Source of the DNA: an uncultured Lachnospiraceae bacterium
GTDB lineage: Bacteria > Bacillota > Clostridia > Lachnospirales > Lachnospiraceae
DNA length: 64,000 nt
Assembly (NCBI GenBank): GCA_947173945.1
Contig: CAMWGV010000007.1
Coordinates: 1-64,000, forward strand
Direction of reading: 5' to 3'
Of this stretch, positions 10,370 to 59,544 are shown one piece after another (position 1 is the first letter of the stretch; every line of letters begins with the position of its first letter). The notes below the pieces were generated by a model. It made no database searches. It worked only from the letters and a program-made list of their open reading frames with translations, and was not told the DNA's origin. The position numbers were made by a program, and so were the translations under genes.

Positions 10370-10554
10370 CAAGCAAAAATAATATACACAACTATGACGA
10401 TATCATCCATCTTCCCCATCATCAATCGAAAACCAGACCTCATATGTCCATATATGACCGTGCCGCCCAATTTTCTCCGTTTTCAGCACTTACAGGGTAT
10501 GATGATGTCCTAAAGGATGCCGCAAAGCAAAACGAAGAATATATGGACAACTAA
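10366..10554 (+). CDS. YolD-like protein, probably C-terminally truncated
   Basis: SIYDRAAQFSPFSALTGYDDVLKDAAK motif; overlaps the end of the Y-polymerase gene; stops 17 bp before a large palindrome. Confidence 0.65.
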   Translation: MTSKNNIHNYDDIIHLPHHQSKTRPHMSIYDRAAQFSPFSALTGYDDVLKDAAKQNEEYMDN

Positions 10555-10570
10555 AGGGGCTTCTCACTAA

Positions 10571-10925
10571 AATTTAAGTTGTATGGCTTACCCACCGCAG
10601 TCACATACTGCTATACACATAAAACACGCTTTCGCTCGTCTCCGACGTAACGGTACTAAGAGCTTGGATTTCAGTTGCATAGACGCATGCATGTAAAACC
10701 GTTTGAAGACGTCGGTACTTAAATTGCCGGTGTAAGATTCCTTGATATGGAAATATCTTAAACCGGCAATTTTTAGTACCGCTACGTCGGAGACGAGCGA
10801 AAGCGTGTTTTTATATGCATGCGTCTATGCAACTGAAATTCAAACTCAAGTACCGACGTCTTCAAACGGTTTTTTGTGTATAGCAGCATGTGACTGCGGT
10901 GGGCAAGCCATTCAACTCAAATCTT
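10571..10925. repeat. ~355 bp nested palindrome carrying two oppositely oriented copies of a fixed junction module (A..B' outer, B..A' inner)
   Basis: Outer arms 10571-10622/10871-10925; module A 10625-10659 with B' 10848-10872; middle arms 10661-10697/10809-10849; module B 10698-10720 with A' 10773-10808; apex hairpin 10721-10772. Confidence 0.88.
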
Positions 10926-10941
10926 AATGTGACTGCCCTTT

Positions 10942-12378
10942 TTAGTATGCTTTTCCAAAGTAAACCATTTTCTTGGCAGGCTTACCACAGTGAACACAAA
11001 CCTCTGAAAGGCTTTCCTGATTAAATGGCATACATCTAGTTGTGGCTCCTGTCTCATCTTTAATAGCTGTCTCACATTCTTCTTCTTCACACCACATAGC
11101 TTTTATAAAGCCTTGTTTGTTTTCCAGTATATCAGTAAACTCTTCCCAGCTTGTTGCAGTACGGGTATTTTCGTCACGATGCTTTTTTGCACGTTCAAAC
11201 ATATCACTTTGCATCGCTTCCAGAATTTCATTTACTTTTGCAGAAAGTTCATCAAAGGAAACTACCGTTTTCTCTCTTGTATCTCTTCTTACAATAACTG
11301 CCTGTCCTGCTTCAATATCCTTAGGTCCGACTTCAACTCTTAATGGTATTCCTCTCATTTCCTGTTCAGCAAACTTAAAGCCCGGATTTTTATCTGAGGC
11401 ATCAACCTTTACACGAACAGATGCCGATAATATTTTTCTAAGCTCCTCCGCCTTTTCAAGCACACCCTCTTTTTTCTGCATAATTGGTACAATCATCACC
11501 TGCGTAGGTGCAATTTTCGGAGGAAGTACAAGCCCGCTGTCATCTCCGTGAACCATAATAATAGCCCCGATAAGCCTTGTTGTCATTCCCCACGATGTCT
11601 GGTGAACATACTGAAGCTTATTTTCCTTGTCCGTGTATTGAATATCAAATGCTTTCGCAAAGCCATCCCCAAAATTATGGCTTGTTCCTGACTGAAGTGC
11701 TTTTCCGTCATGCATAAGCGCCTCTATCGTATAGGTTGCCTCCGCTCCCGCAAATTTTTCTTTATCAGTCTTCTTTCCCTTTATTACAGGCATGGCAAGA
11801 ACCTCTTCACAGAAATCAGCATATACATTCAACATCTGTATCGTTCTCTCCTCTGCCTCATCAGCAGTAGCATGAGCCGTATGACCCTCCTGCCATAAAA
11901 ACTCTCTGGAGCGTAGAAAAGGTCTGGTCTCCTTTTCCCACCTGACAACGGAGCACCACTGGTTATAAACCTTTGGCAAATCCCTGTATGACTGGATTTC
12001 TTTACTGTAAAAATCACAGAACAATGTTTCCGATGTAGGTCTTACACACATTCTCTCCTGAAGGGGATTAAGACCTCCATGCGTTACCCATGCAACCTCC
12101 GGTGCAAACCCCTCAACATGATCCTTTTCTTTCTGAAGAAGGCTTTCCGGTATAAACATAGGAAGATATACGTTCTCAACACCAGTCGCCTTAAAACGCT
12201 CATCAAGCTGCTTTTGTATCAGCTCCCATATGGCATATCCTGCCGGTTTCAAAACCATACATCCTTTAACACTTGTATAATCTATAAGTCCCGCCTTGGT
12301 AACCACATCCGTATACCATTGTGGGAAATCCTCCTCCATGGAAGTTATTTGCTCTACTAACTTTTTTTCCTTAGCCAT
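10942..12378 (-). CDS. proS: Prolyl-tRNA synthetase (archaeal/eukaryotic-like type)
   Basis: [56 protein letters not shown]. Confidence 0.93.
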
Positions 12379-29680: not shown

Positions 29681-31129
29681 TTAAACATTTTTTCCCTTTA
29701 TCCAAATCGATGGACTAAATAAAAGCAACAGTGGAAATAACTCAAGCCTTCCTGCCAGCATATCAAACATCAAAACAAACTTGGAAAACACACTAAAGCC
29801 TGCAAAATTCTGTGTAGGCCCCACTGCCTCAAGTCCAGGTCCAATATTATTTATGGACGCAACAACTGCGGTAAAGTTTGTAACAAGACTCTTACCATCA
29901 AAGGAAAGTAAAAATACAGACAATGCAAAAAGCATTGTAAAGGTTATAAAGTATACATTTGTTGCACGTAAAATCTCATGTTCTACAACCTTGCCCTCCA
30001 TCTTTACCTTTTTAACACTTCTCGGATGTATATATGATACAATTTCTTTTCCAACCGTTTTACATAGAATTATAATTCTTGAAACCTTAATTCCTCCGCC
30101 TGTACTTCCTGCACATGCACCAATGAACATAATCAATATGAGAATTGTCTGTGATGTATGTGGCCATAGATCAAAATCTGCAGTACAAAATCCGGTTGTA
30201 GTCATAACCGATGCCACCTGAAATGACACGTGCCTTATTGCATCTGCCGCAGACTCCCACAAGTCCCTTACATTAACAAAAATTATAACAATTGATGTCA
30301 ACATAATAAGCAGATATGTTCTTGCCTCCTCATGCTTTATTGCCATTCCGAATTTCTTCATAAATATAAGAAAATATACACTGAAATTAACTCCGAACAG
30401 TATCATAAAAACGGTAACTACCCACTGTATATATGGACTTGCACTTATAAGGCTGTCATTCCTTATCGCAAAGCCTCCTGTTCCGGCAGTTGACATAGCT
30501 GTGGTCACAGCCTCAAAAAACCTCATTTTTCCGGCAAGTAAAAATATGACCTCAACGATTGTAAGCACAATATAAATGCCATACAGATAAATAGCGGTCT
30601 GCCTTACCTTAGGCACCAGCTTTCCCACAGATGGCCCCGGACTTTCAGCCTTCATAAGGTTCATATTGGAGCCTCCTGTAAGTGGTAAAATGGCAAGTAT
30701 AAACACAAGAACTCCCATTCCTCCAATCCAATGGGTAAAGCTGCGCCAAAACAAGCTGCATCTCGACAGACCTTCAATATTATTCAATATACTTGACCCT
30801 GTAGTTGTAAATCCTGATATTGTCTCAAAAAGTGCATCAACAAAATTTGGTATATCTCCATTTAGTACAAATGGAAGGCATCCTATAACAGACATAAGTA
30901 TCCAGCTTAATGCGACAGTCACAAACCCTTCTTTCACATAGAACGTCATATTTTTAGGCTTACGCATTACCGTAAGCCCACCGACCAGAACACAGGCAAG
31001 CATAACCCAGAGAAATGCAAGCCCCTGGGTTTCACCCTTTATTGCTGCAACGAGACATGGCATTGTCATAAATGCCGCCTCAAAATTCATTATCCATCCT
31101 AAAATATATACAACAATTGCGTAGTTCAT
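29681..31129 (-). CDS. trkH: Potassium uptake protein TrkH
   Basis: FTTTGSSIL, FRSFTHWIGGMGVLVF, STAGTGGFAIRND, GACAGSTGGGIKVSR. Confidence 0.92.
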   Translation of the reverse strand: MNYAIVVYILGWIMNFEAAFMTMPCLVAAIKGETQGLAFLWVMLACVLVGGLTVMRKPKNMTFYVKEGFVTVALSWILMSVIGCLPFVLNGDIPNFVDALFETISGFTTTGSSILNNIEGLSRCSLFWRSFTHWIGGMGVLVFILAILPLTGGSNMNLMKAESPGPSVGKLVPKVRQTAIYLYGIYIVLTIVEVIFLLAGKMRFFEAVTTAMSTAGTGGFAIRNDSLISASPYIQWVVTVFMILFGVNFSVYFLIFMKKFGMAIKHEEARTYLLIMLTSIVIIFVNVRDLWESAADAIRHVSFQVASVMTTTGFCTADFDLWPHTSQTILILIMFIGACAGSTGGGIKVSRIIILCKTVGKEIVSYIHPRSVKKVKMEGKVVEHEILRATNVYFITFTMLFALSVFLLSFDGKSLVTNFTAVVASINNIGPGLEAVGPTQNFAGFSVFSKFVLMFDMLAGRLELFPLLLLFSPSIWIKGKNV

Positions 31130-33640: not shown

Positions 33641-33685
33641 TTTCTCTCTCCAAATTAATTTATGAAATATTTACCTGCCTTATAT

Positions 33686-33713
33686 GGCTGTTGCACTAAG
33701 AATATTATATCGT
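33686..33713. repeat. Half copy of GGCTGTTGCACTAAGAATATT repeat
   Basis: GGCTGTTGCACTAAGAATATTATATC, near-identical to left arm at 49584-49610. Confidence 0.7.
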
Positions 33714-49407: not shown

Positions 49408-49583
49408 TTCTCTCCTCTTTCCGCAGGTTTTCCTGCAATTATGTTCTATATAATGACATGCCATTTATAAATTTTGCCATGTCAATTTATATACGTTTTA
49501 AATGTTTCACTTTACACCGCTACGGTTTAACGCGTTAAAGCAAGGTGTGCATAGTTCCCTCTTGTTGTAACTGTATATCACAA

Positions 49584-49741
49584 GGCTGTTGCACTAAGAA
49601 TATTTATATCATAATATAAAAAAATCGTTTGAAGACGTCGGTACTTAGGTGACGTACTTTGGCACCTTAGTACCGTTACGTCGGAGACGAGCGAAAGCGT
49701 ATTTTCGTTATTATGATATAAATATTCTTAATGATAACAGT
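49584..49741. repeat. Composite palindrome: GGCTGTTGCACTAAGAATATTTATATCATAATA arms with junction module B/A' at the apex
   Basis: Arms AAGAATATTTATATCATAATA / TATTATGATATAAATATTCTT (21 bp perfect); core CGTTTGAAGACGTCGGTACTTAGGTG...CACCTTAGTACCGTTACGTCGGAGACGAGCGAAAGCG at 49626-49699. Confidence 0.88.
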
Positions 49742-49751
49742 CTCACATATA

Positions 49752-59480: not shown

Positions 59481-59544
59481 GATGCGGTATCGCACTAACA
59501 ATATTTACATCTTATCCCAATATTCTTAGTACGACAACCTCATC
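59481..59544. repeat. Palindromic repeat related to the 49.6 kb arms, without inserted core module
   Basis: GATGcGGTaTCGCACTAAcAATATT ... AATATTCTTAGTACGACAACCTCATC. Confidence 0.75.

Follow-up and report, generated by a model that had tools for sequence, protein, structure and literature searches.

A doubly nested palindrome at the proS 3' end, a copy of a scattered and probably mobile repeat of Lachnospiraceae

A near-perfect palindrome at positions 10553-10941 of a 64,000-nucleotide stretch of DNA from an uncultured Lachnospiraceae bacterium (termed here the window) contains the same module twice, in opposite orientations, with the inner copy lying within the loop of the outer copy. The palindrome is a copy of a scattered repeat, present about 40 times in this genome, that is probably both previously undescribed and a small mobile element that is not self-sufficient. 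The best explanation, to which a probability of roughly one half is given, is that a non-autonomous mobile palindromic element of the Lachnospiraceae is present here as a doubly nested copy, the core of the element possibly spreading into hairpin tips. The same module centres palindromes with unrelated ends.

The searches run matched this structured repeat to nothing that has been described, and it occurs in more than a third of the sampled species of one main gut family, often in tens of copies, and inside palindromes of a kind that genomes normally delete. A conserved centre with free ends inverts the usual logic of small mobile elements and points to a recognising factor. More generally, recursive nests constitute a natural record of the growth of long palindromes, and near-identical copies, such as those of genome G074, make mobility testable.

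The palindrome at the proS 3' end

The palindrome lies between convergent genes, namely a 62-aa ORF ending at 10554 and proS ending at 10942. An inverted-repeat search of the window detected five inverted-repeat pairs across 10553-10941, and the two module copies were located with R1, a covariance model built from the module and comprising 24 pairs. The features of the window are:

10553-10625, plus strand: left outer arm (arm0), 85% complementary to 10869-10941 (inverted repeat I1)
10869-10941, plus strand: right outer arm (arm0'), the I1 partner, its end adjoining the proS stop codon
10621-10659 and 10773-10811: A/A' inverted repeat, 97%
10660-10699, plus strand: left second arm (arm1), inverted repeat I3 (10660-10698 with 10809-10847, 92%)
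10808-10847, plus strand: right second arm (arm1'), the I3 partner
10695-10725 and 10843-10873: B/B' inverted repeat, 94%
10721-10772, plus strand: apex hairpin P4, of the AAATTGCCGG...CCGGCAATTT type (inverted repeat I5, 10721-10738 with 10755-10772)
10613-10879, minus strand: outer module, forward on this strand, with the inner unit as its loop (R1 61.8 bits, E 6.8e-18)
10624-10659, minus strand: A' half of the outer module (A on the plus strand), from sequence and motif search
10628-10635, minus strand: mini-hairpin GCGAAAGC of the outer module, inside its A' half
10848-10868, minus strand: B half of the outer module (B' on the plus strand), an exact motif match
10689-10819, plus strand: inner module, forward on this strand (R1 80.9 bits, E 2.6e-24)
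10700-10720, plus strand: B half of the inner module, CGTTTGAAGACGTCGGTACTT, from sequence and motif search
10773-10807, plus strand: A' half of the inner module, TTAGTACC-GCT-ACGTC-linker-GAGCGAAAGCGTG, from sequence and model alignment
10797-10804, plus strand: GNRA mini-hairpin GCGAAAGC of the inner module, from sequence and model alignment
10942-12378, minus strand: proS ORF, from the ORF listing
49583-49745, plus strand: second, single-level copy of the element (R1 match at 49615-49713, 90.1 bits; end motif AGGCTGTTGCACTAAG at 49583)

The nested palindrome is thus real, and the inverted-repeat pairs reproduce the order arm0-A-arm1-B-apex-A'-arm1'-B'-arm0' that the initial annotation had proposed; its placing of the inner unit in the loop of an inverted outer unit agrees with the R1 matches, which fall on the plus strand for the inner and on the minus strand for the outer module. 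The extent given there, 10571-10925, is slightly short of the 10553-10941 defined by the inverted-repeat pairs. That these inverted repeats arose by chance has a negligible probability and was rejected: the RNA folding energy is -213.4 kcal/mol versus -97.1 +/- 5.6 for shuffles (z = -21), the window has three exact occurrences of the B motif and three of the A' motif versus 0.00 expected by chance, and the module recurs at 72 places in the genome. The third pair of B and A' motifs is the single-level copy at 49615-49713. Elsewhere in the window, matches to the GGGCTGTCGCACTAAG end motif (with 2-3 mismatches) that lack the module occur at 30906-30921, 33685-33700 and 59525-59540 and are candidate module-free hairpins.

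Distribution and fold of the core module

In this genome (2.84 Mb in 108 contigs) R1 matches 72 places, 39 of them strongly; most of the others are the mirror-image outer modules of nests. The A' motif is found at 30 places and the B motif at 50, many of them in facing pairs about 161 bp apart, which implies that the nested arrangement itself recurs. The earlier description of a repeated, structured module with variable arms, located at hairpin apices, is therefore upheld: the genome search yields many copies rather than two loci, the arms vary between copies rather than being constant, and an Rfam search at gathering and relaxed thresholds gave no match for the module, neither to a group II intron nor to any other RNA family. 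Literature searches on Lachnospiraceae palindromic repeats returned nothing relevant.

Under strict filters, R1 matches one place or more in 146 of 396 Lachnospiraceae genomes and in 119 of 280 genera. Per-genome counts are highest in G016 (at least 105), G074 (92) and G325 (80). Many near-identical copies in G074 (L274-L293) lie at contig ends, so that the repeat breaks this assembly and the true copy number is probably higher. In a class-wide sample of 392 genomes the positives were 11 Lachnospiraceae and one member of another family; about 380 genomes of other families gave a single match, at the end of a small contig. No module match was found in viral contigs (by an exact-pattern scan) or in plasmids. 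The only match in the phage collection is a genuine module (L359, 52.8 bits, loop GCGA) at 17-118 on the minus strand of MT839589.1, a record labelled Bacteriophage sp.; it lies beside NUDIX-, HAD- and XRE-like genes in a contig that resembles bacterial chromosome, and carriage by phage was dismissed because the genes of this contig look bacterial.

The module, which spans about 75-130 nt, folds on one strand only into a three-way junction. Its parts are a variable arm (P1); a helix (P2/P3), CGTCGGTAC opposite GTACCG-UU-ACG, whose halves are split by a 2-nt bulge and which is capped by a variable apex (P4); and, on the 3' side between this helix and P1', a 2-bp mini-hairpin with a GNRA loop (GC-GNRA-GC). 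Alignments of 38 and then of 59 diverse copies gave this one fold, which describes the partial pairing of B with A' better than the asymmetric internal loop that had been proposed for it.

The proposed helices show the compensatory changes of a structured RNA or single-stranded DNA (ssDNA) element: there are 213 double-change cells versus 48 in shuffled data (0 of 500 shuffles reach 213, and slid partners give at most 46), and across genera both sides change in 22 of the 24 pairs. Within the distant copies L203 and L215 nearly the whole core has been rewritten with its pairing kept, CGTCGGTAC/GTACCGTTACG having become CATCCCTAC/GTAGGGCAATG, and changes in the mini-hairpin stem are likewise compensatory (GT-GAGA-AC in L199, GT-GGGA-AC in L221 and AT-GAAA-AT in L209). 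The loop is GNRA in 133 of 134 distinct copies, with A or G always at its third position, a count towards which the search pattern leans (it allowed two mismatches to GAGCGAAAGCG). This loop preference favours RNA over ssDNA; the same sequence is also known to form stable mini-hairpins as DNA, which leaves room for an ssDNA form. Departures from pairing in the arms are G-T more often than A-C overall (161 versus 114), with a G-T excess in 14 versus 6 genomes and none in this genome, a pattern that is suggestive only of RNA. The suggestion of a non-autonomous element or a structured ssDNA or RNA module stands as to repetition and structure. Short stretches of the module may resemble 16S or 5S rRNA, and an rRNA origin was considered on that ground and then dropped.

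The GNRA loop and the covariation, together with the 161:114 ratio of G-T to A-C in the arms, would also suit a cis-acting RNA of the neighbouring genes, that is, a 3' UTR stabiliser, a terminator or a riboswitch-like element; moreover, among the listed single copies in this genus, those co-directional with the upstream gene outnumber the others 11:3, and solo A/A' hairpins end in T-runs right after stop codons. Such a role is nevertheless improbable and was set aside: among copies between co-directional genes (pooled, with genes called mechanically from long ORFs) 39 lie along and 39 against transcription, which is not the pattern of a cis-mRNA element, gene context is not shared by the dozens of copies, and presence at one site, the proS 3' end, varies between close relatives. 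Copies occupy 22 convergent versus 8 divergent gaps, and the orientation and gap counts fit an element tolerated at 3' ends.

Nesting

The distinct copies that were parsed comprise 68 single-level, 39 double-level and 5 triple-level copies (L177 is the only complete triple, the other four being without one recognisable half; L113 was read by eye). One module can lie within another, at the apex stem, and orientation alternates in every double and triple nest, there being 0 parallel nests. The second arm, arm1, varies widely in sequence, has a length of 40-43 nt in 38 of 44 nests, and at its base resembles the P4 base of single copies (agreement with AAATTGCC is 4.6 of 8 positions, versus about 1.8 further in); in L069, for example, it starts with AAATTGCCGTCTG. 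Taken together, this length and this P4-like base fit a unit with its own short P1 that would have been placed at the tip of the outer P4. As for the earlier idea that the module inserts at, or creates, hairpin apices, the base of arm1, an unrelated hairpin repeat (H2) that also lies in apices and empty orthologous hairpins all point to what may be active insertion.

Strict alternation may represent an insertion rule. It may instead represent a survival bias, in that parallel nests, with palindromic DNA lying between direct B and A' repeats, would be deleted by slippage, whereas alternating nests would persist. Or it may mirror a few founding events, given that all of the nests were found within one genus, which counts to that extent against the best explanation; the number of independent nesting events is small, since there are at least two nest types with unrelated arms (the common type and L238) and triples in four genomes.

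Palindromes might also grow through replication errors, a polymerase switching template within a hairpin and thereby duplicating the module in inverted orientation, with no discrete insertion at all. This would explain why orientation always alternates and why arms stay complementary while diverging between copies, as template-directed repair would give. It is unlikely, however, inasmuch as simple switching would centre the palindrome on the copied segment rather than produce A-arm1-B-apex-A'-arm1'-B'; arm1 and arm0 differ, the base of arm1 being similar to P4; and H2 also lies inside apices and a junction linker.

The H2 repeat (ATGTCCTGAGGTGTCTGCGAAGCAGACGGAGTCCTGAGGACA) was observed inside P4 apices or the A' linker at L104, L107, L347, L348, L349, L100 and L110, loci picked for carrying the module and from which no rate of apex preference can be read; at L100, L104 and L110 it is split by a second H2 copy in its own loop. 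At L112 (G000, contig C14, 19.1-22.3 kb) a 2.7-kb segment that carries a GH1 beta-glucosidase gene and a ROK-family gene and no transposase lies between two double-nested copies inverted relative to each other.

Ends, routes of spread and known systems

Around the same core lie the end types GGGCTGTCGCACTAAG and AATTGCGAAACTC in this genome and GTAACAGTTCAGCCGTG and CTCAAACTTCCCAC in G074; since these two genomes together have four or more unrelated end types, no terminal inverted repeats are common to all members. In G016 the outer flanks of copies are asymmetric, and one arm segment differs between copies yet stays complementary. As judged from sequence, what is conserved from genus to genus is the centre, the ends and arms being free; this is the reverse of a classical MITE, and hence something must recognise the centre.

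Some families bear target-site duplications. Near-identical G074 copies have ends of the form GTAACAG...CTGTTAC with matching 8-bp flanks (CCGTTGGA, 8/8, at L283; 7/7 at L282, the flanks of L282, L281 and L279 being elsewhere graded one base off), and family-2 copies in this genome have 8-10-bp flanking repeats (10/10 at L118, CAAATCTATC; 9/10 at L119). Four other G074 copies (L287, L288, L154 and L275) show no clear flanking repeat, and duplications are not evident for the window's GGGCTGTCGCAC family; over 166 copies, flanking direct repeats have a mean score of 2.02 versus 1.34 +/- 0.12 for shuffled pairings. The duplications imply that whole palindromes transposed, at least in some families, and their length of 8-10 bp indicates, from sequence evidence, movement in these families by what would be a transposase of the cut-and-paste type.

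Two candidate enzymes were rejected. Y1 transposase (PF01797) is absent from G000, G399, G400, G416, G417, G418, G431, G074 and G087, that is, from most high-copy genomes. GTAA..TTAC ends and 8-bp duplications are traits of the IS66 family, and this combination prompted a search with an IS66 model, which found no IS66 transposase in G000 or G074.

According to the best explanation, the folded module, as RNA or as ssDNA exposed by replication, would be recognised by a trans-acting protein and would be what spreads between palindromes, entering the tips of MITEs, of terminators and of its own P4; the carrier palindromes would then spread it through the genome. Against this stand the failure to find an enzyme with the Y1 and IS66 searches, the fact that target duplications account for movement of whole palindromes rather than for conservation of the centre, and the possibility that empty hairpins are deletion products. 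A bolder version is tentative: the core would be a mobile module of minimal size, formed by RNA or ssDNA as a strand-specific three-way junction and put into hairpin tips, including its own, by a putative Lachnospiraceae enzyme, thus giving recursive alternating palindromes and hitch-hiking on unrelated MITEs.

It is somewhat doubtful that the core is an ordinary passenger, several MITE families of DDE transposases sharing a central palindrome through descent and end exchange, with nests as MITE-in-MITE insertions. The core would then be kept because it benefits the MITE, for instance as an interruption that protects a long perfect palindrome from hairpin nucleases or slippage, and would not be self-moving. 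The 8-10-bp duplications and terminal inverted repeats of several families are as this would predict, most copies are strictly intergenic, and hairpins with the same ends and no module (N=0) are also present. Nevertheless, variable ends around a centre conserved across genera are the opposite of what MITEs show; within nests, the inner unit does not carry its own terminal repeat (arm1, at 40-43 nt, lacks GGCTGTCGCAC); the IS66 and Y1 models revealed no matching transposase; and a passive spacer needs neither a GNRA loop nor a covarying core.

Among known systems, bacterial MITEs with long inverted repeats are similarly intergenic, palindromic and gene-free, some families having 8-10-bp target duplications, but they keep their ends and leave the middle free, whereas the Lachnospiraceae element keeps its middle across genera and leaves its ends free. 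REP copies occur in alternating orientation in mosaics. The present copies, in contrast, are nested rather than side by side, and most high-copy genomes lack Y1. REP/BIME elements, which are moved by Y1 (RAYT) transposases, resemble the element as repeated extragenic hairpins (PMC3733652). REPs are 20-40 bp long (PMC3733652); here no such short hairpin with a GTAG or CGTC tag was found, the core being about 75-130 nt and the palindromes about 125-550 bp. Integron attC sites share a strand-specific folded site with a variable apex, and group IIC introns share insertion next to or into hairpins (PMC7923331, PMC2727003); the conserved letters differ, however, there is no Rfam group II intron match, and no cassette array was seen.

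The element is best classed as a clade-restricted mobile foldable repeat, to which the bcr repeats of the Bacillus cereus group come closest, the likeness being one of description rather than of compared sequences. In the portions of PMC6542083 and PMC3446304 drawn on here, bcr repeats are intergenic, 100-400 bp long and present in tens to about 130 copies per genome; bcr1 and other bcr repeats share with the element its clade restriction, intergenic position, foldability and MITE-like mobility, as well as a mobilising enzyme that is not identified. They differ in sequence, in host clade and in having a mobility tied to TTTAT repeats, and those portions describe neither a three-way-junction core across unrelated ends nor recursive alternating nests. 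No TTTAT repeat was found at element ends in the listed flanks, which were read by eye.

The proS 3' end illustrates how one site varies: where this genome has a double nest, G431 has a decayed remnant, and G407 and G401 each have a single module, the one in G401 lying in the opposite orientation and being related in its apex and arms. G413 has another double nest, the arms of which are unrelated. In G400, G416 and G417 the hairpin is module-free, and elsewhere there are other hairpins or none. Module-free hairpins could be deletion products that mimic empty sites. The copies in G407 (L227) and G401 (L233) are seemingly the same copy in opposite orientation, a flip that suggests inversion by recombination between palindrome arms. 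In G405, G426 and G425 (L240, L242 and L243) the site is occupied by a different long hairpin family, CTCGCTTCGCTCAGAC...CTGAGCGA. Finally, solo A/A' hairpins (AAACACGCTTTCGCTCGTCTNAGACGAGCGAAAGCGTG, followed by T-runs) occur directly after stop codons at L009, L016, L018, L023 and L350, and are probably deletion derivatives acting as terminators.
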